This document shows positions 14,802-37,745 of a stretch of 37,759 nucleotides of DNA, in pieces. Numbering within the stretch: position 1 is the first letter of the stretch; the number at the start of each line of letters is the position of its first letter. Position numbers and translations under genes: made by a program. Under the pieces are notes generated by a model. The model was given only the letters and a program-made list of their open reading frames with translations, made no database searches and was not told where the DNA came from. The stretch is from Phycisphaerae bacterium (lineage in GTDB: Bacteria > Planctomycetota > Phycisphaerae > UBA1845): the NCBI GenBank assembly GCA_016929015.1, contig JAFGJQ010000481.1, positions 1 to 37,759 of the forward strand, read 5' to 3'.

Positions 14802-17800
14802 TCACTCAGGCGGCGGGTCTGGCCGGACGCCGTCGAGCACTTCGCGGATGCGGCGCAACAGGTCGCGCCGGCTGAACGGCTTGGCGAGAAACTCAACGTT
14901 GTCGTCCAGCACGCCATGGTGGGCAATGATGTCCGCGGTGTAGCCGGACATGAACAGCGTTCTGAGGGCCGGCCGCTGCTCTTGAAGCGTTTCGGTCAGG
15001 CGTCTGCCGTTGATATCGGGCATAATGACGTCAGTGATCAGCAGGTGGATGGTTCGCTCGTGCTCGGCCGCCTGCCGCAGGGCATCTTCGCCGTTGGCGG
15101 CCGTCAGCACCGTGTAACCCGCCTGCCGCAGCATGTGGGTCACGAGTTGTCGCACGGAGTCGTCGTCCTCGCAGACGAGGATCGTCTCCGTTCCCCCCAC
15201 GGATGATTCCACCGCCGGGGCAGCGACCGGAGCGTCCTCGACCGGCGTTGTGAGCGCGGGCAGGTAGACCCGGAACGTGGAGCCGCGGCCGACCTCGCTG
15301 TACACGGTAATGTGCCCGCCCGCCTGGGTCACGATGCCGTAAACGGTGGCTAGGCCCAGCCCGGTGCCCTGGCCCACCGACTTGGTCGTGAAGAACGGCT
15401 CGAAGACCCGTTCCAGCGTTTCGCGGCTCATCCCGACGCCGGTGTCGCTGACGGCCAGCAACACGTGCGGCCCGGGGTGGGTATTGGGGTGGGCCTCCGT
15501 GTACGTCTCATCCAGCAACTCATTGCTGGTTTCGACGACGATGCGCCCGCCGTCGGGCATGGCATCCCGCGCGTTGACCACCAGGTTGACGATCACCTGC
15601 TCCATCTGGCCGCCGTCGGCCCAGACGGGAGACAGGTCCGAGGCCAGACGCAGCTCCAGCCGCACGTTCTCCGTCAGGAGCCGTTGCAGCATCTTGGCCG
15701 CATCCTCCAGCGTTTGATTGAGATTCAGGGCCTCCGGCTGGGCCAGGCCGCGGCGGCTGAACAGCAACAACTGACGCGTCAGGTCGGCGGCGCGCAAGGC
15801 GCCGCGCTCCACTTCCTTGAGTTCGATCATCGGCGCGTCGTTCGGCGGCGTTTGGGAAGCCAGGGCCTGCTGCATCAGGTCGACGTTCCCGAGAATGGCG
15901 GTAAGGATGTTGTTGAAGTCGTGTGCGACGCCGCCGGCGAGCTGCCCGACGGCCTCCATCTTCTGCGATTGCCGCAGTTGGCGTTCGAGCCTGGCGCGTT
16001 CCTCCTCGGCCGCCTTTTGCTCCGTCACGTCGCGGCAGACGGCGAAGATCAGCTCCTGTTCGAGAAGCGGATACGAATTCCAGGACAACCAGCGATACGT
16101 GCCGTCCTTGCGGCGGTACCGGTTCTCGAAGGACCGCACCTCCAGCCCCTGGCGCAGGCGATCGACGGAGGCGACGGTGGCGGGCACGTCGTCCGGATGC
16201 ACGAGATCGAGGAAGACCGGCTCCGTCAGTTCCGCGGCGCTCCAGCCCAGCGCGCGCGTCCACGCCGGATTCACCTGCTTGAAGCGCCCGTCAAACCCGG
16301 CGATGCAGAGCATGTCGATCGAGAGGTTGAACAGGCGGTCCCGCTCCTCTTCCATGCGATTCAGATCAGCGATGAAGCGGGCCTGCTGCACGTTCTGATA
16401 GGCCTTGGTGGACAGTTCCTTCGAGAGAATGAAAAGCGTGTGGGCCACCCTGCGGAACTGCTCCTCCGACATCACGGGCACTTCTTCCAGTGCCCGGCGG
16501 AACGCCTCCGGGTCCACGCCGATCTCCTCGGCATACCGGGCGATCTGCTCCAGGTCGAGACGCTCGTTGCGAACCTGACCGATCAGCCAGTTGGCCACGT
16601 GCTTGCCGCCCACCATAATGCTGGCCCCCGCGCCCCACAAACCGGCACTCAGGCACGGCCGCACCGTCGGGCCGTCGATGCACACCTGGCCCAGCGACGA
16701 GTCGGAGAGGTGGCATCTCTGGCGGCCCTTCTCGCTCTTGCGGATGAACTCCGCGCACAGGCGACAGAACCCGCTCGGACGGGTGATCGGCGTTCCGTCG
16801 GGATCGGTGATTAGCTGTGCCGTGCCGCTCGATTCCGTGAACGCATCCTGGAGTTTCTGGATCTCCTCGAGGTCGAACAAATCGGAGAAGGTGATCGTTG
16901 CGGTGTCGTCCAGCGGGCGCGTCATGGCGACCAGGCGGCTCTGCAGCGCCTGTTCCGCCCGCTTACGCTCGGTGATGTCCTGGACGGTTACGACGTATCC
17001 GGCGGCGGGATCCTCTGGGCGCAGTACGGACCCGGTCAGCAGCACGTCGATGAACGTCCCGTCCTTGCGCCGAAAGCGGCTCTCCATGCTGGCGTGCCGG
17101 CCCTGGCCGGCCTCCACGTACAAACAGCGACCGACCTCCTCATACTCCTCCGGATCGCTATAGAGCAATCGCGCGCCATGGTGAAGGAGTTCGTCCAGGC
17201 TGTAGCCGGTCAACTCGCTCATGGAGTCGTTCGCGTTCAGAATCACACGGTCCCGGGTGAACGCAATGCCGATCGGCGCCGCGCGGAAGACGCTGCGGAG
17301 CGTGGATTCACTGGCCTTGAGCTCCCGATCGGCCCGGCGGTGTTCACTCACGTCCGCCAGGATGGACATCGCCCCGACGATGTTCCCGGCCGCGTCGCGC
17401 AGGGGCGCGGTGGAAACGCTGACGTCCACCAGGCTGCCATCCTTGCGCCGGCGCACGCGGTCCTGCACGTGGATGCCGACGCCGTGCAGGGCTTGCTCGA
17501 TCGTGGAGTCAGCCTCCTTCTCATCCTCCGGCAGCGCCAGCGGGTAGGGGCGGCCGACCACCTCCGCGGCGCTCCAGCCGAAGATCTTCTCCGCCGCCGG
17601 GCTCCACTGTGTAACTTTGCGATCCGCACCGTACGTGACGATGGCCAGCGGCGAGGCCGTCACCAGCGCCTGCAGCGTCTCGTTGGTCCGGCGCAGCGTC
17701 TCCTCCGCCCGTTTGCGCTCGGTAATGTCACGCATGATCGAGGAATAATGCTCGACGTGCCCATCGGCCGCGCGGTGCGCCATGAGTAATTGCGACACCG

Positions 17801-20800
17801 AAATCTCCCGGCCGCCGGCGTCGAGAATGGCGGTCTCGCCCTGCCAGAAACCGGTCTGATTGACCGCGGGCAACGCCTCGTCGCGCAGCAGGCGATGCGC
17901 CCAGGTCGGATACAACTCGCTGAGATCGTGCGTGTCCAGCGCCGCATCCTCGTCCCATCCCAGCAGCCGCCGGCCGGCGGCGTTGAGATAGAACAAGCCC
18001 CCTCCGGGATCATTCATCACCACTACGTCGCTCGTGCTGTCCAGGATTGCCGTCAGGCGCGTCCGCTCCTCCTCGATGCGCCTGCGCTCGGTGATATCGA
18101 TGCCTACTCCCATCATGAACGGGCCGTCGGGCGTCATGAGCCGGGCAATATTGATGAGGTAAGGTACAAAGCGTCCTTTCTTGTTGACCAGAGTAGTCTC
18201 AAACGCCCCACCGACACCGGTATCGAGGACTGATTTGACAAGGGCCATGCCAACTGCCGCGTCCTCAGGCGTTTCATGCCAGTCCGCAATATACCAGTCG
18301 CGAAGCTCGTCGGCGGTGAACCCCATCGCAGTCTCGTGGGCCTTGTTCCAACGCTTCAAGTGGCAAGTCGAATCATACAGGAAGAAGATCCCCGGCAGGC
18401 TTTCCAACAGCTTTTCCGTGAACTGCTTCTCTGCCAACAGCTCCGTTTCGGCCCGCTTGCGGTCGGTCAGGTCGGTGTGCGTTCCAACCATACGCAGCGG
18501 ACGGCCGTCGGGCGTGCGACTTACGACCTTGCCTCGGTCGAGAATCCACTTCCAACGGCCGTCCCGGCAGCGCATCCGGTGCTCGCTCACGTATGTGGCG
18601 GTCTGCCCGGACAGGTGTCGTTCCAGATCGGCCCGGGCGCGCGGCAGATCGTCCGGATGCACCCTCTCTTCCCACTCCGCGAAGTTCCCCCCGACCTCGT
18701 CCTCGGCGTAACCCAACATGGCCTTCCACTGCCGTGAGAAGAAGACCTCTTTGGTCTGCGCGTTCCAGTCCCACACCCCGTCGCCGGACCCTTCGAGCGC
18801 GAACTGCCAGCGCTCCTCGGCAGCACGCAGCGCCCGCTCCGCCCGCTTGCGCTCGGTAATGTCCTGAACGGTCACGACGTGGCCCGCGGAAGGGTCGTCG
18901 GGACGCAGCACGGACCCGGTCAGCAGCACGTCAACCGCGGTGCCGTCCTTGCGGCGCAGACGGGCCTCGATATGCGCGTGCCCGCCGGCGGGCGCCGGTC
19001 CGTACAGTTTGCGACCGACTTCCTCGAATTCTTCCTGCGTGAAGTACAGGTGGCGAGATGATTCTCCCACGAACTCGGCCTGGCTGTACCCCAGCAGATC
19101 ACACAGAAACTCATTCACACTAACCGTCGTGCGATTCTTGACGAAGATGATGCCGATGGGCGCCGCCTGAAAGAGCCCCCGAAGCCGCGATTCACTCTCC
19201 TTCAACTCGCGATCCGCCCGCCGGTATTCGGTAACTTCAAATGCAATCTCGATAACGCCTGATATCTCGCCCTGATCGTCGAAGACGGGAGCGGCATGCA
19301 GCTCCCAGATCTTCCCGTTCGGCGTATCGCGATCTCCGAATTCCGGTATTCCGGAGACGAAACAGCGCTGCACGGGGCACGCTTCGCACGGTTCGGACAG
19401 GCCGTGCCGGCAGCGGTAGCAGTACTGTCCAAGCATTTCGCCGGTCTCGAAGCCCATGCTCGTATTCTTTGTATACTCGTTGGCCCAGACGACCTTCAGG
19501 TCGGGCGACAGCAGCACGAGCGAACCGGGAATGGCCCCCAGAATCGACTGGAACTCCTGGGACAGGGCGCGGTACTTCCGCTCACTCTCCCGTAGTTCGT
19601 TCTCCGCCTGCATGCGCTGCGTGATGTCGTGGTGCATGATCACCGCGTTCGTGATCGTGCCGTGCTCGTCCTTGACCGGCGAGATCGTCACCTCCAGGAT
19701 GACGTGCTTGGCCGGTCCGTGCCGGCCAAGCGTCCAGCGGGCCATGTCGTAATCCAACGTGAAACGCGCGGTTTTCCCTTCGTTGAATACGGATTCGACC
19801 AGGGGCATGAACCCCTGCTCCCGCACGATGTCGTCCTGCAGAACGTTGTATCGGTGGATGACGTCCTCCTCGGCGATGCCCAGCAGATCGCAGCAGGCCC
19901 GGTTGATGCGGATCAGCATGCCCTGAGCGTCCGAAATCCATATCGCGTACGGATTCTGCCCGACGATGTTGTCCAGCAACCGCTCGCGCCTCTGAGTATC
20001 CGCCTCGATCTGCTTGCGTTCGGTGACGTCGCGCACAACCGCGAGCAGGTCCCGGCCCGACCCCAACGACACGCGGCTCAGGGCAACGTCGGTGTCAAAG
20101 ACCGTTCCATCCCGCCGCCGATGGCGCCACTCGAAGAACACCATGCCGGTCTCCGCGGCCTGCCTTGCGTGGGCCGGGCCGATCTCCACGGATGAGGAAC
20201 CGTCTGCCTGCTGCGGGGCCCAGAAATGCGAAATGGGCAGTTCACGGATCTGCTCGCGTGTCGCACCGAACATCTCCAGGGCACGCTGATTACACTCGAC
20301 AACGTGCAATTGTCCGTTATCGCCGCGCAACAGAAGGATGGCGTCGCCCGCGGCTTCGAACAGCGCCCGGTACTTCGTCTCGCTCTCGCGCAGCTTCTCC
20401 TCCGCCTGCTTGCGCTGCACGATCCGCCACATGCCGCTCATCAGCAGCGTCAGTTGACGCACGTCAGACTCGTCATAGTCCGATTCCTTGTTGCCGACAC
20501 CGGCCACGATCACGATCCGGTCGCCGTCAAAGACCGGAACGTTCATGTGCCGCTGAACCGCGACGTGCCCGGCCGGCGTGCCCTTCTTCCACGGATTGGG
20601 CACTGCGCAGTCATTCGTGATGATCGGGCGACGCTGCCGCACCGCCTCGTCCCAAAGCCCGGTCTCGGTAACGACGTACTCCACCGGCCGGTCCTGGACC
20701 GCGCACTCAGCCATCGCGCCCTTCGACCACGCAAACATGGTCAGCGTGCTCTCGTCCTCGCCGGCAAAGGCGATGTAACCGAGTTTGCTGCGGGTCAGCC

Positions 20801-22547
20801 GCACGGCCTCCTCCATCGCGAACTCGGCAATCTCCGTAAGCGACGCCTCCGTCATCTGGTTCAGGCGCAGCAGGGCTTCCAGCCGCGCCTCGTTCAGTTG
20901 AAGCGTCTCCTCGGCCTGCTTGCGCTCCGTCACGTCCTTGATCACGCCCATCATGCGATGGGCCCGGCCGGCGTCGTCATACAGGCACGCCCCCTCGTCA
21001 CTCACGTGCATGTACGTCCCATCGGCCTTGCGGAAGCGGTACTCGCAGTGATGCGTCCGGCGGTCGCGGATCGCAACGTCCAGCACCGCCATCGCGTGCC
21101 CGAGGTCTTCCGGATGCACGTATTCCTGCCAGCCCGCCAGGCCGCGTGCGTTCATCTCGTCCGGCGCGTACCCCGTAATCTCCCGGAGCCGACCCGACCA
21201 GTGAACGGCGCCGGAGGCAAAGTCCCAGTCGTAAATGAGCTGGCCCGTGAGCTCGGCGACGCGCCGAAAACGCTCTTCGCTTTCCCGCAGGGACTCATCC
21301 GCCGCTTTGCGCTCCGTGATGTCCGAAAAGACGATCAGGCCCGCGATCAACTCGCCGTCGCGACCGCGGATCGGCGTACCGCTTATGGACGCCCAGCGCC
21401 GCGTGCCGTCCTTGCGAATCACCCCGTAGTCTGCGTTCGTGAACGTCTCCCCTTGCAACGTGCGGGCAAGTGGCAGTTTCTCCGGCGGGGTCGGCGTACC
21501 GTCCGGCAGGATGTCACGCCACGTCTGCCGCCGGTAACTCTCCGCCAGCGGCATGCCGGTGTAGTCCGGCTCGTCCGTCTTCCCCAAAAATTCACGGGCC
21601 GCTCGGTTGGCAATGCCGATCTTCCGCTCCCGTGCATGCGCCAGCACTATGGGAACGGGCGATTGCTCAACAACCGCCTCCAGCAGCAGGCGCGTGCGCT
21701 CCAGCTCAGCCTCGGCCTTCTTGCGCTCAGAGATGTCAATGCCCACTCCGATCACACACGGCTTGCCGTCCCGAATCACACGCATGCCCTGGAAACAGAA
21801 CGGCGTTTCTCGCCCATCCTTCGCAACGAGGACCGTTTCGACCCCGCCCGACCCCTGCGCAAACGTGTCCCGGATGCTCTCCGCAACCTCCTCCCAACAG
21901 TCACGCCGGATCATCTGGTACACGGTTTGCCCGGCGATCTCCTCCGCCGCGTATCCGGTGACCGTCTCCACGTTCCGGTTCCATTTCGCCAGCCGGCCGC
22001 TCTCGTCAAAAACCAGGAACACGCCGGGCATCGCCTCAATGGCCGACTCGGAGAAATGCCGTTCCTGCCGGACCGTCTCCTCCGCTTCCTTACGCTCCGT
22101 GATGTCCTCGTAGAACCCCACAACTCCACAGATCCCCCCGTCCTCCGTCCGCAGCGGCAATTTGGTCGTATCGATCCACAGACGCGTCCCATCGGCCTGC
22201 TGCAACGGCTCGACGATATGCCCGCGTGGCCGGCCGGACTCGATCACCGCACGGTCTTCGGCACGGTAGGCCTCCGCCTCCTCCCGCGGCCACGGCAGGT
22301 CGAAATCCGTCTTCCCCACGATCTCCGAAGAACTCCCCAGGCCCACGGCCTGCGCGAACCGCTCGTTGCAGCCCAGGTACACGCCCTCACAGTCCTTCCA
22401 GAACACCGGATGCGGCACGGCATCGAGAACCTGAGCCGCGATCTGCCGGCACACAAACTCCGGTGGCGGAGGTGACTTCCCCGCGCCCCCCGATCGCACG
22501 GAGGTCTTGCCGGAAACGCGACCCGAAGCGTCACCGTCTGGAGCCAT
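14802..22547 (-). CDS. Giant soluble hybrid histidine kinase: 14 PAS, GAF, PocR, HisKA, HATPase, REC
   Basis: The 2,581-residue sensor has no signal peptide or membrane helix, so it should act in the cytoplasm. PAS domains 1-4 cover about residues 36-545, each ending in a D(I/V)(T/S)ERK linker. A GAF domain follows (553-708), then PAS 5-13 (715-1863), a PocR-type domain (about 1875-2050, with Cys pairs CRLC and RCHLSD) and PAS 14 (2058-2178). The kinase core has the H box VAHDFNN (His2209), the N box NLVVNARDA near 2320, DTGVGM, FEPFFTTK and GQGTGLGLA. A receiver ends the protein, with EDDD, phospho-acceptor Asp2506 in LLITDVIMPD, and the late Lys in AKPFS. PAS 7 has a C-x2-C-x7-C-x2-C-x4-C cluster starting at Cys1043. 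ATG 22547 has GAGG seven bases upstream; GTG 22553 is the alternative. No separate response regulator is encoded nearby. Confidence 0.95.
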   Translation of the reverse strand: MAPDGDASGRVSGKTSVRSGGAGKSPPPPEFVCRQIAAQVLDAVPHPVFWKDCEGVYLGCNERFAQAVGLGSSSEIVGKTDFDLPWPREEAEAYRAEDRAVIESGRPRGHIVEPLQQADGTRLWIDTTKLPLRTEDGGICGVVGFYEDITERKEAEETVRQERHFSESAIEAMPGVFLVFDESGRLAKWNRNVETVTGYAAEEIAGQTVYQMIRRDCWEEVAESIRDTFAQGSGGVETVLVAKDGRETPFCFQGMRVIRDGKPCVIGVGIDISERKKAEAELERTRLLLEAVVEQSPVPIVLAHARERKIGIANRAAREFLGKTDEPDYTGMPLAESYRRQTWRDILPDGTPTPPEKLPLARTLQGETFTNADYGVIRKDGTRRWASISGTPIRGRDGELIAGLIVFSDITERKAADESLRESEERFRRVAELTGQLIYDWDFASGAVHWSGRLREITGYAPDEMNARGLAGWQEYVHPEDLGHAMAVLDVAIRDRRTHHCEYRFRKADGTYMHVSDEGACLYDDAGRAHRMMGVIKDVTERKQAEETLQLNEARLEALLRLNQMTEASLTEIAEFAMEEAVRLTRSKLGYIAFAGEDESTLTMFAWSKGAMAECAVQDRPVEYVVTETGLWDEAVRQRRPIITNDCAVPNPWKKGTPAGHVAVQRHMNVPVFDGDRIVIVAGVGNKESDYDESDVRQLTLLMSGMWRIVQRKQAEEKLRESETKYRALFEAAGDAILLLRGDNGQLHVVECNQRALEMFGATREQIRELPISHFWAPQQADGSSSVEIGPAHARQAAETGMVFFEWRHRRRDGTVFDTDVALSRVSLGSGRDLLAVVRDVTERKQIEADTQRRERLLDNIVGQNPYAIWISDAQGMLIRINRACCDLLGIAEEDVIHRYNVLQDDIVREQGFMPLVESVFNEGKTARFTLDYDMARWTLGRHGPAKHVILEVTISPVKDEHGTITNAVIMHHDITQRMQAENELRESERKYRALSQEFQSILGAIPGSLVLLSPDLKVVWANEYTKNTSMGFETGEMLGQYCYRCRHGLSEPCEACPVQRCFVSGIPEFGDRDTPNGKIWELHAAPVFDDQGEISGVIEIAFEVTEYRRADRELKESESRLRGLFQAAPIGIIFVKNRTTVSVNEFLCDLLGYSQAEFVGESSRHLYFTQEEFEEVGRKLYGPAPAGGHAHIEARLRRKDGTAVDVLLTGSVLRPDDPSAGHVVTVQDITERKRAERALRAAEERWQFALEGSGDGVWDWNAQTKEVFFSRQWKAMLGYAEDEVGGNFAEWEERVHPDDLPRARADLERHLSGQTATYVSEHRMRCRDGRWKWILDRGKVVSRTPDGRPLRMVGTHTDLTDRKRAETELLAEKQFTEKLLESLPGIFFLYDSTCHLKRWNKAHETAMGFTADELRDWYIADWHETPEDAAVGMALVKSVLDTGVGGAFETTLVNKKGRFVPYLINIARLMTPDGPFMMGVGIDITERRRIEEERTRLTAILDSTSDVVVMNDPGGGLFYLNAAGRRLLGWDEDAALDTHDLSELYPTWAHRLLRDEALPAVNQTGFWQGETAILDAGGREISVSQLLMAHRAADGHVEHYSSIMRDITERKRAEETLRRTNETLQALVTASPLAIVTYGADRKVTQWSPAAEKIFGWSAAEVVGRPYPLALPEDEKEADSTIEQALHGVGIHVQDRVRRRKDGSLVDVSVSTAPLRDAAGNIVGAMSILADVSEHRRADRELKASESTLRSVFRAAPIGIAFTRDRVILNANDSMSELTGYSLDELLHHGARLLYSDPEEYEEVGRCLYVEAGQGRHASMESRFRRKDGTFIDVLLTGSVLRPEDPAAGYVVTVQDITERKRAEQALQSRLVAMTRPLDDTATITFSDLFDLEEIQKLQDAFTESSGTAQLITDPDGTPITRPSGFCRLCAEFIRKSEKGRQRCHLSDSSLGQVCIDGPTVRPCLSAGLWGAGASIMVGGKHVANWLIGQVRNERLDLEQIARYAEEIGVDPEAFRRALEEVPVMSEEQFRRVAHTLFILSKELSTKAYQNVQQARFIADLNRMEEERDRLFNLSIDMLCIAGFDGRFKQVNPAWTRALGWSAAELTEPVFLDLVHPDDVPATVASVDRLRQGLEVRSFENRYRRKDGTYRWLSWNSYPLLEQELIFAVCRDVTEQKAAEEERARLERQLRQSQKMEAVGQLAGGVAHDFNNILTAILGNVDLMQQALASQTPPNDAPMIELKEVERGALRAADLTRQLLLFSRRGLAQPEALNLNQTLEDAAKMLQRLLTENVRLELRLASDLSPVWADGGQMEQVIVNLVVNARDAMPDGGRIVVETSNELLDETYTEAHPNTHPGPHVLLAVSDTGVGMSRETLERVFEPFFTTKSVGQGTGLGLATVYGIVTQAGGHITVYSEVGRGSTFRVYLPALTTPVEDAPVAAPAVESSVGGTETILVCEDDDSVRQLVTHMLRQAGYTVLTAANGEDALRQAAEHERTIHLLITDVIMPDINGRRLTETLQEQRPALRTLFMSGYTADIIAHHGVLDDNVEFLAKPFSRRDLLRRIREVLDGVRPDPPPE
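17026..17048 (-). repeat. Internal repeat inside the kinase gene (copy in PAS 13)
   Basis: These 23 bases recur exactly at 18910-18932, inside PAS 8. The flanking 100 bp are also closely similar. In both copies the encoded protein reads DVLLTGSVLRP followed by a near-identical VVTVQDITERKRAE linker, so the two PAS domains derive from a duplication. Confidence 0.85.
18910..18932 (-). repeat. Internal repeat inside the kinase gene (copy in PAS 8)
   Basis: This is the second copy of the exact 23-base repeat, 1,884 bp from the first. Its encoded domain shares the start AAPIGI, the motif EEVGR near the middle, and the DVLLTGSVLRP end with PAS 13. Confidence 0.85.
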
Positions 22548-23138
22548 ACTCACACCTCATTCGCACAAATGCCAAAACCAGCGAAGCGCCCCATCCCAGC
22601 CCGACCGAGACAGCGGAGCAACGCGTGGCACACGTATGACATGACATGCGACCGCGCAATGCCCGGTACTGCGTAGCCCGCCCACCCAGCAGGCATTATA
22701 GGACACTGCCGCCACCGAGAACATCGGAAAGTCACAGGGCGCCGCCGCACGGCGCATCGTCCGTGTTGCGGTCAGTACGGATTGTCTCAAACACGCCAAG
22801 TGGCCGGCTTTCGGACGCCTTGGCACAAACACACTCGCACCCGCTCAGTCCGCGCCGCCTTCCACCCTGTTCGACGACATGCCGCTGAAGTTGTCCCGTC
22901 TGCGTAGCGCTTGCCCGGCTATCGCGTACGACCGGCGACTCAACGTGCCCCAACGCCGCCCGAACGCTCCGCCCCCCGACGCACGAGCAAACCCCGATCG
23001 CCCGCCGCCCGTTCCACGAGTCCCAACACTGACGCGGCACCATACGCCTCTCGCCCCTGGTCCCGAATGGAAAGCTGCCGAGACCCGCGAACGCGCGACC
23101 GGTTGGCCCTGGACATCGGATCGAACGTGCAACGGCAC
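22548..23138. other. 591-bp gene-free region upstream of the kinase gene
   Basis: I see no convincing gene here. A 97-codon frame on the minus strand starts with GTG directly after the GT9 stop, but its product is Gly/Arg/Ser-rich without domain features and has no ribosome site of its own. The region holds a TATAAT box about 150 bp before the kinase start and a short ATGACATGACATG repeat near 22637-22651. It probably contains the kinase promoter and the end of the GT9 transcript; I found no clear terminator. Confidence 0.5.
22695..22700 (-). promoter_or_regulatory. Candidate -10 box for the giant kinase gene
   Basis: On the minus strand this reads TATAAT, a perfect -10 consensus in a GC-rich spacer. 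The position 17 bp upstream reads TGTTCT, a poor -35, so either an activator is needed or the match is chance. It would give a leader of about 140 bases. Confidence 0.35.
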
Positions 23139-26544: not shown

Positions 26545-27207
26545 CTACCGCGATGCCTTCTTCACGCTGGGATCCAGCACGTAGATCTCGACGCGCCGAT
26601 TCTGCTGGCGCCCTTCCTTCGTGTCGTTCGACGCGATCGGCTGGAACTCGCCGCAGCCGGCGGACACCAGCTTGCCTCCCGTAATGCCGGAATCCAGCAA
26701 CTGCCGGACCACCGTCAGGGCGCGCTGGCTGCTCAGCTCCCAGTTGTCTTTCCACTTCGACTTCTTGATGGGATCCGCATCGGTATGCCCGTAGACCATG
26801 ACCTCTTTGTCCGGATAGGTCGACTGGATGGTCGCCACCACCTCGTCGATCTTGGGGATCGCCTCTTTGCGGAGAACGGCCATGCCGGAGTTGAAGAGGA
26901 ACTCGGCGTCCAGCGCAATCATGGCCCCGCCCGGAACGGCCGTCCAGCCTTCGGGCACCTCGGGCACCGCCGCGAGTTCGCCGCGCAGCGCGTCGTTCTC
27001 GGCCCGGGCGGCCAAATACTGATCGTGCCAGCGGTCGCGATCATTCCGCATCTGCGCCAACTGGTCGTGGCAGTTGTCCAGATCACCCTGGGCCTGCTGA
27101 TAGTTCTGCCTCAGCATGGCCATCTCTTCATTCTCGCCGCAACCCACCGTCATTACGACCATGCCGATGACGGCTGCCAGCATCATTCCACGCACATACT
27201 TCGCCAT
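26545..27207 (-). CDS. OmpA/Pal-family peptidoglycan-binding lipoprotein
   Basis: The 220-residue product starts with MAKYVRGMMLAAVIGMVVMTVGC, a lipoprotein-type signal with Cys23 as the likely lipidated residue. The lipobox is not typical, with Thr at -3. A helical, Gln/Asp-rich stretch follows (about residues 30-75). The C-terminal OmpA-like domain (about 100-215) carries YGHTDADPIKKSKWKDNW, ELSSQRALTVVRQLL and GEFQPIASNDTKEGRQQNRRVEI, which contain the diaminopimelate-binding Asp and Arg of the family. It tethers the outer membrane or envelope to peptidoglycan. The TDADPIKK and WELS form is closer to MotB/OmpA-like stators than to classic Pal. ATG 27207 has AGGAGG at a proper distance. It follows the LapA-like gene by 90 bp and ends in a clear terminator. 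Confidence 0.9.
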   Translation of the reverse strand: MAKYVRGMMLAAVIGMVVMTVGCGENEEMAMLRQNYQQAQGDLDNCHDQLAQMRNDRDRWHDQYLAARAENDALRGELAAVPEVPEGWTAVPGGAMIALDAEFLFNSGMAVLRKEAIPKIDEVVATIQSTYPDKEVMVYGHTDADPIKKSKWKDNWELSSQRALTVVRQLLDSGITGGKLVSAGCGEFQPIASNDTKEGRQQNRRVEIYVLDPSVKKASR

Positions 27208-27297
27208 TACTTTGCCTCCTTGCTTCACGAGGACGCGTTCGCCCGGTCCTCCCGAAGACCAAAAACGCCGCATACTGCCCATGCCGTTTCGGCCACG

Positions 27298-27693
27298 CTA
27301 CGACTTCATTCCGGATTCGTCCGGCGGAGTATGCGGAGGTTCCTCCCGCAAAATCTCCGCCCGCTTCGCGTCGATCCGCCGCTCCTGCTCGGCCAACTCC
27401 GCCTCCCGACGACGCCGGTCTTCCTCAAAAGCCCGTCGGGCCGACTCCTGACCCAGCTCCCGCAGGTCCCTCCAAACCGAAAACACCGTCAACGCAACCC
27501 AGTACGTGACGATGGCCCCCGCCGCCGTGGACAACAGCAGCCACAGGACGTTGACGTTCTCGTACGTTCCGAAGAACCAGAACGTTACGCGGTGGTTGCG
27601 GTTAAAGAGGATAATCAGTACGACCGCGATTGCAACCGCGACCACCAGAGCCAGTTTCACATATGTTCGCAGCCGTTTCAGCACAAGTTTCAT
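27298..27693 (-). CDS. Small two-helix membrane protein, LapA-like
   Basis: The 131-residue protein has a basic N-terminus (MKLVLKRLRTYVK) and a first helix (LALVVAVAIAVVLIILF), then a short loop NRNHRVTFWFFGTYENVNV. A second helix follows (about residues 52-75), and the cytoplasmic tail is Arg/Glu-rich and likely coiled coil (RRAFEEDRRRREAELAEQERR). This matches the LapA (DUF1049) pattern of small inner-membrane proteins in lipopolysaccharide assembly, but the loop is only loosely similar, so I treat it as LapA-like. ATG 27693 has AGGAGA about eight bases upstream. It lies 31 bp after the prepilin peptidase stop. Confidence 0.6.
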   Translation of the reverse strand: MKLVLKRLRTYVKLALVVAVAIAVVLIILFNRNHRVTFWFFGTYENVNVLWLLLSTAAGAIVTYWVALTVFSVWRDLRELGQESARRAFEEDRRRREAELAEQERRIDAKRAEILREEPPHTPPDESGMKS

Positions 27694-27724
27694 CGGAAGC
27701 TCTCCTGACACCGGCCCAGGAAAT

Positions 27725-29320
27725 TCAGGATTTCGCCCCAAGCCCCAGCAACTCAACCAGTTCGATCAGGTTCCGCACCGGCTGGAATTCCACCAGCGGG
27801 TTCAGAAACACGACCGTACCCAGAAACGCCAGCGACAACCACGGCACCAACGGAATGGCCCTCGACTGCTTGAACGGCAGCAACAGCACCCAACCGGCCA
27901 GGGCGATCAGGCACGTGATCACAAACCCCAGGGCCACGACCGGCCATCCCGCCACGCAGCCGGCCGCCCCCATCAAATGGATGTCACCGTCACCAAAAGC
28001 CTCCCGCCCGAACACGAGAGTCCCCCCGATTCGCACCGCCCACCCGATGCCCGCCGCCACCACAAGCCCGGCCGCCGCCGTCGCCAGGCCGAACACCGGT
28101 TGCCACTGCCCGGCCGCCGTCGGACTCCAGTGGAGAACGGCCCTCATCCACCGCCGACCCGGCTCGAAATGAAGGTAGACCAGCAGCGCCGCACAGGCCA
28201 GCACGATGGACGGCAGGAGTCGCGCCAACTCGCGCAGCACCATCCGCCGTGCCTGGGGCCGTTCCGAGTCAATCGCCTCGATGATCTGCACGTCGGCGGG
28301 CCGCCGAACCGCGCCCACCACCAGAATGAGCCCGAAGTAACCCAGCAGCGGCAGCCCGTACCGCAGCCAGGCGTGCCGGGCCGGGTCGTCCGAGGCGTTC
28401 GCTTTCGCGCCGGCCACGATCAGGACCGCCAGAAAGCCCGCCAGCATCCATGCCAAAAGCCATCCCCGAAGCGGACCGACGGGAGGCAACTGGTCCGGCG
28501 GGGCCGTCTCCGCCGTCTCGACCGGCAGGTCCACCGACGGGGGCGCAGCCGGGGCCGGCTCAGGGACCATCACGGACACCATCGCGCCCGCCGCTTCCTG
28601 CGGCCCGGGCCCAGGCACCTCTTGCACCGCCTCTGTCAGGGCGTCGGCGTCTGTGGCGGTCTCCTCGGGCTGCGGACGCAGCAGCTCCACCACGCCGACC
28701 ACGATCATCCCGAAGAAGGCCGCCAGGCAGGCGACGGCTGTTCCGTCCGCCGGTCGAAGCCAGCCGGCCTGCAACGTCTCACCGCCGCTGAGCCGAGCGA
28801 AGCTGTAATCGGGCGTCCACAAGGTGTGCAGAAGACATCCCGCCACAACCGCGAATAGCGCGAAAAGCGTGTCGATCCAGTAATGCTCTATGTCGATCGC
28901 CGACATCGCCAGAAGGCAGGCGAACAGAACCACGTGGGCAAGGTAAATGGGCCAATCACCGGCCAGTTGCCACGACAGACCGACGGCCATGTCGTCCAGG
29001 CCCGAGCGGACCCGCCCGATGAAAAACGCATCCAGCAGTACGACCAGCAGAATGGCCGTCGCCACCTCGATGAGAGGGTATCGTGGAGAAATCGACCCGC
29101 CACAGCAGCGTGCCCGGGCCCGCAGACATAAGTAGCTGACCAGCGGCAGGTTGTCGTACCAGCGGATTCGAGCCTGACAGTGCGGGCAAAACGACCAGAC
29201 CGGCCGGCCGATGCTCAGGCCCAGAGGAATGCGGTAGATCACCACGTTGAGAAAGCTGCCCACGCACAGCCCCACCGCGGCGAAAAAGAGAAGCCACCAC
29301 ACCGTTTCGATCGTGCTCAA
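27725..29320 (-). CDS. Prepilin peptidase (A24 family) with a large insertion
   Basis: The N-terminal part is a typical leader peptidase/N-methyltransferase: GSFLNVVIYRIP (21-32), CPHC at residues 45-48, YDNLPLVSYLCLR, then a short CC pair at 72-73 where CxxC is usual, and SPRYPLIE. The catalytic Asp residues are in SAIDIEHYWID (Asp143) and FGDGDIHL (Asp446). In known members they are separated by some 60 residues; here the gap is about 300 and includes further helices and a Pro/Glu-rich segment (about 235-282). The total is 531 residues versus 220-290 usual. It cleaves and methylates type IV pilin or type II secretion pseudopilin leaders at the inner membrane. The start codon is TTG, as the conserved N-terminus requires; a TATGAT box lies 30 bp upstream. 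Confidence 0.9.
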   Translation of the reverse strand: MSTIETVWWLLFFAAVGLCVGSFLNVVIYRIPLGLSIGRPVWSFCPHCQARIRWYDNLPLVSYLCLRARARCCGGSISPRYPLIEVATAILLVVLLDAFFIGRVRSGLDDMAVGLSWQLAGDWPIYLAHVVLFACLLAMSAIDIEHYWIDTLFALFAVVAGCLLHTLWTPDYSFARLSGGETLQAGWLRPADGTAVACLAAFFGMIVVGVVELLRPQPEETATDADALTEAVQEVPGPGPQEAAGAMVSVMVPEPAPAAPPSVDLPVETAETAPPDQLPPVGPLRGWLLAWMLAGFLAVLIVAGAKANASDDPARHAWLRYGLPLLGYFGLILVVGAVRRPADVQIIEAIDSERPQARRMVLRELARLLPSIVLACAALLVYLHFEPGRRWMRAVLHWSPTAAGQWQPVFGLATAAAGLVVAAGIGWAVRIGGTLVFGREAFGDGDIHLMGAAGCVAGWPVVALGFVITCLIALAGWVLLLPFKQSRAIPLVPWLSLAFLGTVVFLNPLVEFQPVRNLIELVELLGLGAKS

Positions 29321-29449: not shown

Positions 29450-30292
29450 TTACAGCTCGCGAAGCCGATCGGCAAACTCGTTAATGATCCAGTCCGGCGT
29501 GGAGGCCCCTGCCGTCACGCCGGCAACCGTCTTGCCTTCGATCATGCCCGGCTCGAAATCGTTCCACGTCTCGAGGTGGTACGTATCCACGCCCGCCGCC
29601 CGGCACATCCGGGCCAGCTCCTGCGTGTTGGCCGAGTGCTTCCCACCCAGCACGAACATGACGTCCACTTCCGCCGCCAGCTTCACCGCGGCCTGCTGCC
29701 GCCGAATCACCTCCAGGCACAACGTGTTGACGATCTTCAGCTCGATGTACGGCCGCCGGACGATCTCCGCGATAATCTCGGCCACGTGCTCGGGGGCATG
29801 CGTCGTCTGCGCCACGATCCCCAGCCGCTCCTTGAACGGCAACTCACGCTCGACATCCTCCACGCGGTCGATGATGACGACGTTCGGTGCATATCCGATG
29901 ACCCCGCGCACCTCCGGATGGTTCCGGTCGCCGATCATCACCACCCGGTAGCCTTCCTCGTGCAGCCGCTGCACCACGTCCTGGGCCTTCTTCACCAGCA
30001 CGCAGGTGGCGTCGACCACGTTGAGCTGCTTCTGTTTTGCGCGTTCCAGCACGTCCGGCGTCACGCCGTGTGACCGGATCAGCACGTTCGCGCCCGGCTC
30101 AAGCTCCTCCAGCTCGCCCGACTGGCGCAGCCCCGCCGACTCCAGCCGCTCGACGACCTGTTGGTTGTGGATGACCGGACCCAGCGAAACCACGTTGCCC
30201 GCCCCGTATCGGGCCACGGCGCTCTGCGCAGCCTCGATGGCGTCTTCCACGCCGAAACAAAAACCCCGCTTCTCGGCGAGTTTCACGATCAT
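29450..30292 (-). CDS. ispH: 4-hydroxy-3-methylbut-2-enyl diphosphate reductase IspH
   Basis: IspH does the last step of the non-mevalonate (MEP) pathway, reducing HMBPP to IPP and DMAPP with a [4Fe-4S] cluster. The three cluster cysteines are Cys12 (GFCFGV), Cys97 (VDATCVLV) and Cys192 (VNTLCLEV). Substrate residues seen are His42 (GPVIHNQ), His75 (RSHGV), His125 and Glu127 (NHPEV), Thr163/Thr164 and the SAN triad at 220-222. The 280-residue length is normal. Small departures are CVLV instead of CPxV, KKAQ where VxxxH is common, and KHSAN where KNSSN is usual. ATG 30292 has AGGGGTG upstream. The gene has its own promoter overlapping the plsC stop, so it need not depend on plsC. Confidence 0.96.
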   Translation of the reverse strand: MIVKLAEKRGFCFGVEDAIEAAQSAVARYGAGNVVSLGPVIHNQQVVERLESAGLRQSGELEELEPGANVLIRSHGVTPDVLERAKQKQLNVVDATCVLVKKAQDVVQRLHEEGYRVVMIGDRNHPEVRGVIGYAPNVVIIDRVEDVERELPFKERLGIVAQTTHAPEHVAEIIAEIVRRPYIELKIVNTLCLEVIRRQQAAVKLAAEVDVMFVLGGKHSANTQELARMCRAAGVDTYHLETWNDFEPGMIEGKTVAGVTAGASTPDWIINEFADRLREL

Positions 30293-30327
30293 GTGGAAAC
30301 ACCCCTTGCCTGCCGAACCGGCCGGAC

Positions 30328-30356
30328 ATTGTGGCGCAGAAGACCGCATCTGTCAC
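30328..30356 (-). promoter_or_regulatory. Sigma70-like promoter of ispH
   Basis: On the minus strand GTGACA (30356-30351, 5/6) and CACAAT (30333-30328, 4/6) are 17 bp apart. The -35 box overlaps the plsC stop codon. The transcript would start near 30321, about 29 bases before the ispH ATG, and would carry the ribosome site. Confidence 0.5.
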
Positions 30357-34407: not shown

Positions 34408-36045
34408 TCATCGGACGGGCACGACGGCGCCTTGGTCGGGATCGATCGCGATCAGCATGGCCGCGACGTCGCGCAGGTCCACGTCCAGATCGAAATCCGC
34501 GTCAAAGTGGTAACACCCGTGCCCGAAGACTTCGCTCGATGGGCCCGGCCCCCACATGCAGTCGAGCATGGCGTTGAAGTCGTAGACGTCCACCTGGCCG
34601 TCCTCGTCGTGGTCAAACGTCACCTCGCCCGCCGGACCCCCTTCATAAACCCTCTGGAAACCGGCCAGGTCCCACAGGTCCACGTCCTCGTCGTCGTCGA
34701 AGTCCAGGGGCGCGCAGACCGGATCGGCGTGCCGGCCGATCCCGCTCATGCACGCGCGGAACGCCGCCAGGTCCCGCTCGTTGATCACGTCGTCCCCGTT
34801 GATGTCGCCGTGGGGATCCGGGATCTCGATTTCGTCAAACCAGTTCGGCAGGGTGAGGAACGGGTCGCCGACGAGGTTCCACATCCAGTCGTCATGCGGA
34901 TTGGCGAGGTAATACGCCTCGCCCAGCGTCCAGCCCTCACGCAGCGCTGCCACCAAAGTATCCGGGAACGGCGCTCCCGTGGCCAGCTGGGGCTCTCCCG
35001 TTGCCCCGATCGCAGCGGCAAACCCGGCAGCCAGCGCGTTGGGAACGTAGCACGCGTTGGGGTCAGTCAGGCTACGAACCGTAACCGCGCCGAAACTGTT
35101 GTAGTGGAAGCCGAGCACCCGATTGCCCGGCGGGCTGCTGACGAAATCATCAGCCGACCAGCCGAAGAGCTTGTAGATGGCGAATCGAAACGCCGCGGAC
35201 GGCGTGTCCGGGACTGCTTCGATCCCGTCGATGTCGAACTCGGCCCATGCTTCGGCAGCCAGCAGGGGATTCTCCACCGCAGCGCGCAACCAGTACCACT
35301 GGCGAGAAGTACTGGGAAAGCCCGGATCATAGTAGTCGTACCAGATGAAGTCGCCGTGCAGGGTGTGGTCCGGCGCCGCCAGGACCTTCGCCCGCAGAGT
35401 CAGCGCCTTGGCATCATCCAGGGTTGGCGCATCGATCCGGGCCGACATGTAGCGGCCCGCAGCCATCGTTGCCCGGGTCAAACGACCTCCGGGCGGAAGA
35501 ATCTGACCCGTGCAGTGGGGATTGTCATAGTTCGTTCCCATCTGTTTGCGGGGCTCCGACAGATCGTCGGTCATGTCCGTCAGGGCATCTGCCACCGAGT
35601 ATCCCCCGATCGACGGCGTAACGAAAGGCGTGTCGTAGTGCCCGGGCAATGCGTAGCCCAGCACGATCCCCATGACCGACTCCTGCACCTCCGGGTTGGC
35701 GGCCAGGTAGTCCCGCACGGGGCCGATGACCTGCGATTGAACCGCCGCCAGGTTCGGCAAGTGCTCCGTCGTGGCAGCGTCCAGCCCGACCAAGTGGCTC
35801 GCCGGGATGCCCCACTGATCGGCGTACCACTGCGCCCACTCAATGCTATCCGCGCTATTGAGGTTGTAGAGTACCAGCCAGCTATCCGGCAGGTCTGCGG
35901 TGCGATCAGCGGGCGGAACGTCCGCCTGCACCGCGCTGACCATCACGCATGTGACGGCCAGCCAGCCTGAACCTGCGAATCGTGCGCTCGGGATTCCCCA
36001 CGCCCAAGCCATTACGGCACTCCGCTCCATCGCGACGACAGACAA
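34408..36045 (-). CDS. TIGR03790-like secreted protein with four EF-hand/dockerin loops
   Basis: The N-terminal 390 residues look like the TIGR03790 family of uncharacterised bacterial exported proteins. The clue is LYNLNSADSIEWAQWYAD followed by QWGIPASHLVGLD near the start, a pattern of that family; later motifs are FIWYDYYDPG and LVGDPFLTLP. Four Ca-binding loops follow (DINGDDVINERDL, DFDDDEDVDLWDL, DHDEDGQVDVYDF, DADFDLDVDLRDV), twice the usual dockerin content. The start is uncertain. TTG 36045 has GAGGAAGAG five bases upstream and gives a signal peptide ending AVQA. ATG 36030 and ATG 36012 lack a ribosome site but would still keep the hydrophobic segment. The gene sits 145 bp upstream of the M4 peptidase gene. 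The role is unknown; a surface or secreted location is inferred. Confidence 0.75.
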   Translation of the reverse strand: MSVVAMERSAVMAWAWGIPSARFAGSGWLAVTCVMVSAVQADVPPADRTADLPDSWLVLYNLNSADSIEWAQWYADQWGIPASHLVGLDAATTEHLPNLAAVQSQVIGPVRDYLAANPEVQESVMGIVLGYALPGHYDTPFVTPSIGGYSVADALTDMTDDLSEPRKQMGTNYDNPHCTGQILPPGGRLTRATMAAGRYMSARIDAPTLDDAKALTLRAKVLAAPDHTLHGDFIWYDYYDPGFPSTSRQWYWLRAAVENPLLAAEAWAEFDIDGIEAVPDTPSAAFRFAIYKLFGWSADDFVSSPPGNRVLGFHYNSFGAVTVRSLTDPNACYVPNALAAGFAAAIGATGEPQLATGAPFPDTLVAALREGWTLGEAYYLANPHDDWMWNLVGDPFLTLPNWFDEIEIPDPHGDINGDDVINERDLAAFRACMSGIGRHADPVCAPLDFDDDEDVDLWDLAGFQRVYEGGPAGEVTFDHDEDGQVDVYDFNAMLDCMWGPGPSSEVFGHGCYHFDADFDLDVDLRDVAAMLIAIDPDQGAVVPVR

Positions 36046-37043: not shown

Positions 37044-37745
37044 TTAGCGACGCCGCCGGATCGCCAGAGAACCAATACCCACCATCAAGAGAGCCACTGT
37101 TGCCGGTTCAGGGACAATGATCTGCATGCCCTGCTTCTCGATAAACGAACCCGACGGCGCCTCACCATCCACCTGGATCGAGTTCGACACCTTGAGCCGG
37201 AAATACTGCCACGGCTGGTCTGCGTTGGGGGGAACGGTCACCCCCGCGTTCAGCGTGTAGCTCGCCTCCCACGTACCGTCCCCATGGAACGTCGGGGCAA
37301 TGTCGATTACACCCGTGCCTCCCGCAGGCTCCGGCAGATAGCGAGTCACGGAGAAATCCAATTTGAACCCGAAGTCCGTCGCCGGATCGCTGATGCCCTG
37401 CGACCATGTCCCCCATTCTCTCACCGTGATGAACTCGATCGCCGGGGCCCCACCCGGAACGGAATTCGCAACATTCAACCTTACTGACGCAATGTCCGAC
37501 TTGGTCGCGCTGACCCCGCCGCCACCGGCCGCCAGAAAGTCCACCGGGCTGGAAAACAAAAACCCGGAATCGCTGACCACCGGCGACCCGAATCGGTCCG
37601 CCGTATTACTCCCGTCAGACCAGCCGAACGCCGCATTGGCGCCCGAGGCGTTCGACCACGCACCGGCCCACGCCGGCGCCGCCGCCACGCACACCAGACC
37701 AATGACCACCGCCACCGCCATCGAGTATCGAGAGCCGTGAATCAT
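37044..37745 (-). CDS. PEP-CTERM sorting-domain protein (paralogue 1)
   Basis: The 233-residue protein has a signal peptide (MIHGSRYSMAVAVVIGLVCV, cut near AWA) and a C-terminal PEP-CTERM signal (VPEPATVALLMVGIGSLAI then RRRR). The body holds RFGSPVVSDSGFLFSSPVDFLA, which aligns with a motif of the downstream gene, so the two are tandem paralogues. It lies 40 bp upstream of the other, and both are probably on one transcript. ATG 37745 has AGGAG just upstream, at the very edge of the window; Met9 is a possible later start. The sorted product's role is unknown; matrix or envelope is inferred from the family. Confidence 0.88.
   Translation of the reverse strand: MIHGSRYSMAVAVVIGLVCVAAAPAWAGAWSNASGANAAFGWSDGSNTADRFGSPVVSDSGFLFSSPVDFLAAGGGGVSATKSDIASVRLNVANSVPGGAPAIEFITVREWGTWSQGISDPATDFGFKLDFSVTRYLPEPAGGTGVIDIAPTFHGDGTWEASYTLNAGVTVPPNADQPWQYFRLKVSNSIQVDGEAPSGSFIEKQGMQIIVPEPATVALLMVGIGSLAIRRRR

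Follow-up and report, generated by a model that had tools for sequence, protein, structure and literature searches.

An expanded prepilin peptidase with additional predicted membrane helices between its catalytic aspartates in a Phycisphaerae bacterium

Gene, domains and genomic neighborhood

The analyzed stretch of DNA, hereafter the window, comprises 37,759 nucleotides of a contig (JAFGJQ010000481.1) from a Phycisphaerae bacterium. On its minus strand, positions 27725..29320 encode an expanded A24 prepilin peptidase of 531 amino acids with a TTG start codon. The initial annotation had placed a prepilin peptidase here, and its coordinates, strand and family assignment were right, as seen from the open reading frame, the N-terminal domain and full-length homologues within the order. 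The Pfam search located this domain, PF06750 (A24_N_bact), at residues 16-95 (29036..29275, minus strand) with an E-value of 1.4e-28 and 99.3 bits, compared to a cut-off of 23. It covers TM1, the cytosolic zinc/methylase loop and the start of TM2, and strands were predicted by AF2 around the Cys pairs. The peptidase domain PF01478 (Peptidase_A24) was matched at residues 406-475 alone, which correspond to the second half of the model. With 23.1 bits the match is below the cut-off of 26.5 bits, since the insert splits the domain; an unexpanded member of the class (L190) passes this cut-off across the full model. None of the NCBIfam models matched the window protein, and at E≤1 only PF06750 and PF01478 were found by Pfam, the presenilin/SPP profile being absent.

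Matches to the window protein were found in 58 of 60 relatives, with no internal stops among the matches listed. PF06750 could be identified in 57 of the 60, with a single match per genome apart from three exceptions, namely split or partial second matches in two genomes (G006 and G024) and a weak extra match in a third (G043).

The upstream neighbor is IspH/LytB (29450..30349, minus strand; PF02401, 4.6e-85), which was found in 16 of 30 loci compared with flanks of 1.5 kb. Downstream, a small membrane-protein ORF (27298..27756, minus strand; no Pfam family over cut-off) overlaps the end of the peptidase gene and is present in 21 of the 30 loci, followed by a gene for an OmpA-family protein (26545..27282, minus strand; PF00691, 5e-18) in 20 of the 30; the window's own copy is included in each of these counts. 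The order IspH, peptidase, small membrane protein and OmpA protein is therefore a recurring one, and the latter two are possible functional partners of the peptidase. With PF06750 present and with these neighbors, the window gene differs from the CpaA/TadV type, a short A24 protein without PF06750 encoded in a Tad locus.

Three further genes on the minus strand of the window were recorded. Positions 14802-22553 encode a hybrid histidine kinase of 2583 amino acids with many PAS domains, GAF, a PocR sensory domain and a receiver. A protein with a PEP-CTERM sorting signal over the Pfam cut-off is encoded at 37044-37745, and a weak dockerin match below the cut-off was found at 34408-36045.

Catalytic aspartates and their spacing

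Both aspartates named in the initial annotation are located in recognizable motifs, D143 within SAID143IEHYWID150 at the start of TM4 (28892..28894, minus strand) and D446 within AFGDGD446IHLM. The latter is the second catalytic Asp of the GxGD motif G-D-G-D446 (27983..27994, minus strand), which is followed by I-H instead of x-K. The distance between the two, given there as about 300, was determined to be 303 residues.

For the alignment of the order, 55 distinct ORFs of at least 400 amino acids were used, including the window protein and excluding L033. Asp occupies both positions, 143 and 446, in 55 of 55 sequences, with a spacing of 236-341 residues, so that the expansion is shared by the A24 peptidases of relatives. 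A wider comparison set of the class and phylum consisted of 185 distinct ORFs in which both motifs were located. It leaves out 8 of 193 ORFs with the N-domain whose second motif could not be located (L023, L066, L130, L216, L219, L224, L228 and L231). In all 185 sequences the first Asp is conserved.

The segment between the aspartates had been described as about five times the usual size. This holds relative to PilD, in which the spacing is about 64 residues. Compared to the other classes of the phylum the factor is only about 3.6, the median there being 84, a value that is indicative only, as it is based on 39 sequences used from 46 loci picked by score or in part as long frames.

The K of GxGDxK is present in all 39 sequences from other classes of the phylum; within the class it is absent, with H, Y, P, D, L or F in its place. 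Since this applies to the unexpanded class families as well, the loss of K is independent of the insert; it could mean an altered catalysis across the class. In three expanded proteins of class family f11 (L178, L189 and L200) the GxGD motif reads G-A-A-D (VAMGAADAPLMA), with Ala for the Gly before the catalytic Asp.

Architecture of the insert

The expansion comprises residues ~169-405 (28106..28816, minus strand), as determined by comparison to a spacing of 72-96 residues in most unexpanded relatives. Hydropathy averaged over the 55 homologues revealed 12 TM-like segments with approximate bounds, four of them within the insert. The core helices are present, but the usual layout of eight TM segments with a single one between the Asp helices was not found, and the enzyme was therefore filed as a variant. 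Using hhalign, the profile of the canonical TM4-TM5 region was aligned to residues 404-446 with 97.5% and to the first inserted helix with 3.7%, which locates the insert between TM4 and TM5 and identifies residues 408-436 (28013..28099, minus strand) as the canonical TM5.

On the minus strand, the inserted segments TM a (residues 196-212; 28685..28735), TM b (290-306; 28403..28453), TM c (321-337; 28310..28360) and TM d (365-381; 28178..28228) were all assigned from the family-averaged hydropathy. A Pro/Glu-rich variable loop with many gapped alignment columns (213-289; 28454..28684) lies between TM a and TM b, and a conserved amphipathic segment (D343-E364; 28229..28294) precedes TM d. The extra helices and the Pro/Glu-rich loop reported between the aspartates were thus recovered. 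Both the loop and the amphipathic segment are predicted to be cytosolic and are acidic, with on average 7.7 and 6.9 D+E compared to 3.1 and 3.7 K+R per sequence, respectively. As the number of inserted helices is even, the topology would be kept.

Conservation in the order alignment is found in the second half of the insert, at D343 (54/55), E353 (51/55), A357 (53/55), R358 (53/55), E364 (55/55) and P370 (54/55). An origin by duplication of TM4-TM5 received only 0.6-3.7% in the comparison of this canonical region with the inserted helices; the 45% obtained for TM5 and the first inserted helix is only a hint of a possible duplication trace. A PDB search with the insert alone returned no convincing relative, and no second copy of the insert was found in the own genome.

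A conserved motif within the insert

The conserved residues of the second half include the signature R358-x5-E364-x5-P370 (28211..28249, minus strand). Counted over the 185 homologues, R-x5-E-x5-P occurs between the aspartates in 124 of the 139 expanded class members, in none of the 40 unexpanded sequences and in one of six that were expanded independently. By group, it was identified in 54 of 56 sequences of the order, 2 of 2 of family f14, 9 of 13 of f11, 5 of 6 of f10 and 54 of 62 other expanded class members. It mostly lies 69-94 residues N-terminal to the second Asp. When the segments of the expanded class groups were shuffled, 3-8% contained it. A comparison of motif profiles by hhalign gave a match of 96.5% between the order and the forms with one added hairpin.

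Distribution and history of the expansion

The PF06750 search matched 118 of 120 genomes of the class and 152 of 157 genomes of the phylum. Outside the class, the 39 sequences of the phylum have 72 to 176 residues between the aspartates. Two class families, f9 and f18 (6 sequences), have a spacing of 80-88 residues and two TM segments between the aspartates. Most class families show a spacing of ~160-220 residues with four TM segments, i.e. one added hairpin. In f10, f11, f14 and the order of the window (56 sequences) the spacing is 228-341 residues, mostly with five or six TM segments, corresponding to two added hairpins. Single outliers from the family pattern occur elsewhere. Six proteins from the rest of the phylum (L141, L148, L220, L229, L230 and L232) have 151-176 residues between the aspartates and keep the K; these are apparently independent expansions.

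A tree was built on 256 columns without the insert. Families f9 and f18 group as one clade (0.999), with all expanded members next to it; a further, expanded clade unites the order and f14 (0.997). Support for the node of the class itself is weak (0.392). Families f10 and f11 were placed outside the clade of the order and f14, so that the second hairpin must have been acquired repeatedly or else lost repeatedly. The profile comparison of this hairpin between the order and f11 gave 16.5%. On the basis of these alignments, one gain followed by losses and parallel gains both appear possible.

The expansion is real and inherited, and it grew stepwise within one class. The enzyme had been proposed to be possibly lineage-specific, and this is supported: the expansion is spread by inheritance across one class and reaches its greatest extent in the order of the window and in a few further families.

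The second Cys pair

The second Cys pair had been noted as CC rather than CxxC, and this reading was borne out. The motif is A70-R71-C72-C73 (29102..29113, minus strand), in which the alignments and codons show Ala in place of the first Cys and an extra Cys beside the last. The zinc site of four Cys in the form CxxC...CxxC is thus incomplete in the window protein, whereas 184 other homologues of the 185 have C at the position of A70. In addition, A68 is found where Gly stands in 50 of the 55 order homologues. The codons around this site (cgg gcc cgg gca cgc tgc tgt) read cleanly, so a single base error cannot explain the change. Being private to the window among the 185 homologues, it is separate from the insertion.

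A relative of the same genus (L004) reads CRCC. Two A24 proteins carried by IMG/VR contigs, L263 and L265, read RTACC and RSSCC, respectively, and share the xxCC pattern. A shifted site therefore recurs elsewhere and may, judged from these sequences, still bind metal. The gene on contig L263 (1459-2598) encodes an A24 peptidase with a different, apparently soluble insert of ~110 residues between TM5 and GxGD as well as the xxCC pair. The CxxC zinc site is also missing from some other prepilin peptidases.

In PilD, zinc is described as bound by four Cys and as required for methylation but dispensable for cleavage; next to the third Cys, a basic residue and a Gly also contribute to methylation (PMC3584216). 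The absence of the third zinc-site Cys and of the neighboring Gly from the window copy points to a changed site for pilin N-methylation with cleavage intact. The altered zinc site could thus separate pilin methylation from cleavage in nature; the significance of this methylation is called a mystery in one account of the family (PMC10191384).

Pilin-like proteins of the genome

The own genome contains a single PF06750 gene, which makes the window enzyme its only peptidase of the PilD/GspO type. The other A24 gene (G000:C387) is CpaA-like and is located amid matches to Flp_Fap, TadE, RcpC and Secretin, i.e. in a Tad locus. N_methyl matches number 61 at E≤1, 56 over the cut-off and 52 at E≤0.001, and 15 matches to the T2SSE ATPase were found. 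In 40 relatives, 9 to 66 pilin-like genes per genome were counted. Given a sole PF06750 gene and dozens of N_methyl matches, the window enzyme is likely to process dozens of pilin-like proteins. This reasoning does not explain two genomes (G002, 90% complete, and G049, 99%) with 22 and 33 N_methyl matches, respectively, and no PF06750 match.

The initial annotation had also suggested a search for pilin-like proteins with leader peptides, for which the 52 matches at E≤0.001 with typical leaders give a positive answer. Leaders were recovered from 30 N_methyl loci of the own genome and from four gene clusters. They are ordinary type III signals with G or A before F-T/S-L-x-E, and mostly carry F at +1 and G or A at −1. 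The 33 leaders counted, which include one that is not pilin-like, had medians of 12 residues in length and +3 in net charge. Two of the 35 leaders are not pilin-like, namely L236, which begins with MTPS, and the first of L256. The suggestion that the enzyme is substrate-adapted therefore found no support at the cleavage site.

Structure prediction

An AF2 model based on six sequences, of which the five others are very distant, reached a pLDDT of 56.7 and a pTM of 0.55; without alignment the pLDDT was 46.7. In the model from six sequences the core blocks mostly range between 64 and 86, and the insert blocks are at most 60 and mostly below 55. Among the 128 chains compared by VIA-align, the best match was chain B of gamma-secretase 5a63, which we take to be presenilin (88 residues, 3.5 Å), with a Z of 6.0 that is within the chance range for helical bundles according to the note of the tool. 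The match spans residues 127-511 of the model, with helices on both sides of the insert, and the chain range 241-455, which presumably covers both catalytic Asp of presenilin. This chain ranked top and is the sole GxGD protease recognized among the VIA-align rows; FlaK is absent from them, which carries no weight. Foldseek of the model against the PDB and BFVD found nothing at E≤0.001, and a PDB sequence search with a profile of 15 relatives found no A24 chain.

The presenilin match is consistent with, and not proof of, Asp helices that meet. A model in which the two aspartates cannot approach, named earlier as an outcome that would speak against the assignment, was not obtained, although the model itself is weak.

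Interpretation and alternative explanations

We consider it probable that the window gene encodes a working peptidase of the PilD/GspO type in which hairpins were added stepwise at the TM4-TM5 turn and now form a side bundle that carries a conserved helix on the cytosolic side, close to the active site. According to this proposal, TM4 with D143 and TM6 with D446 would still pack together, so that the active site would form in the manner common to GxGD proteases. Being even in number, the added four helices would constitute a side bundle that leaves the topology elsewhere unchanged. This bundle would present the short, acidic and amphipathic R-x5-E-x5-P helix at the cytosolic face, near the catalytic GxGD in sequence. 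To judge from its conservation, the helix would most likely aid in docking or positioning the prepilin leader, which is positively charged, or hold a partner from the pilus or secretion machinery. An extended form of this proposal, in which the bundle is a built-in accessory subunit that gates or docks prepilins and couples cleavage to a partner machine via the helix at the rim of the active site, is regarded as rather unlikely. If true, a bundle within one chain would do the work of separate presenilin subunits or loops.

Several other explanations were weighed against this proposal. Regulation as in presenilin, with the Pro/Glu-rich cytosolic loop blocking the active site of an inactive precursor until it is displaced or cut, is likewise rather unlikely. 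It would agree with the membership in the same GxGD superfamily, with the top rank of presenilin among the solved structures matched by the model and with the acidic, variable character and low predicted order of the loop. Presenilin is likewise described as a protein that undergoes endoproteolysis and has a loop between TM6 and TM7, the helices bearing its aspartates (PMC4326451). However, conservation would be expected of a plug or cut site, whereas within the insert this loop, with its many gapped columns, is conserved least; the conserved part is the later R-x5-E-x5-P helix. The idea that the insert serves unusual prepilins of the lineage draws on the large number of pilin-like genes in the own genome and the 40 relatives. 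We judge it improbable, since the recovered leaders are ordinary; the Ala frequently found at −1 is known from prepilin leaders elsewhere.

A degenerate or moonlighting homologue without peptidase activity might be suspected from the PF01478 score below the cut-off, the class-wide loss of the K from GxGDxK and the altered zinc site of the window copy. Against this, the first Asp is invariant in 185 of 185 and the second in 55 of 55 sequences, and the protein is the only enzyme of the PilD type for dozens of pilin-like proteins, which makes inactivity very improbable. The enzyme is most likely active, an expanded form of a known one. Finally, an assembly, frameshift or gene-fusion artefact, which had been named as a possible refutation, could be considered because the genome is fragmented into 530 contigs, of which the window is one. 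It was excluded for all practical purposes by a further 54 homologues of full length in which the same architecture is found, by the lack of internal stops among the matches listed and by the conserved motif within the insert.

Comparison with known systems

The literature search found no assay of such an expanded enzyme and, judged by title and abstract, no description of such an insertion. The sole PilD-type enzyme of the class gained two and then four helices between its aspartates, and the intermediate grades persist. It represents a natural experiment on the way in which an insertion is first tolerated and later conserved by a GxGD protease, with R-x5-E-x5-P as a defined motif for mutation. 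The insert also explains why these enzymes are under-scored by the Pfam peptidase model.

PilD/GspO is classified in MEROPS as A24A. The window enzyme shares with it the PF06750 N-domain, the two catalytic Asp with GxGD, the C-terminal TM helices and a Cys zinc site, as well as the occurrence of one enzyme per genome for many prepilins. It differs in the 303 residues between the aspartates, compared to 72-96 in most unexpanded relatives, in the four extra TM helices and the R-x5-E-x5-P helix, in H for K after GxGDx and in A-x-C-C for the second CxxC. CpaA/TadV of the Tad pili has the Peptidase_A24 domain in common with it, but lacks PF06750 and the insert.

Prepilin peptidases are introduced as a family with eight helices in a source that also indicates an A24 peptidase core common to the archaeal FlaK/PibD (PMC10191384). 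FlaK/PibD has neither the zinc/methylase domain nor such an insert. The GxGD motif and a long segment between the Asp helices are also features of presenilin/gamma-secretase. The segment in presenilin is a loop, however, whereas that of the window protein consists mainly of predicted membrane helices, and presenilin has no PF06750. Moreover, presenilin cleaves within the membrane, whereas a prepilin peptidase cleaves the leader at the membrane rim.
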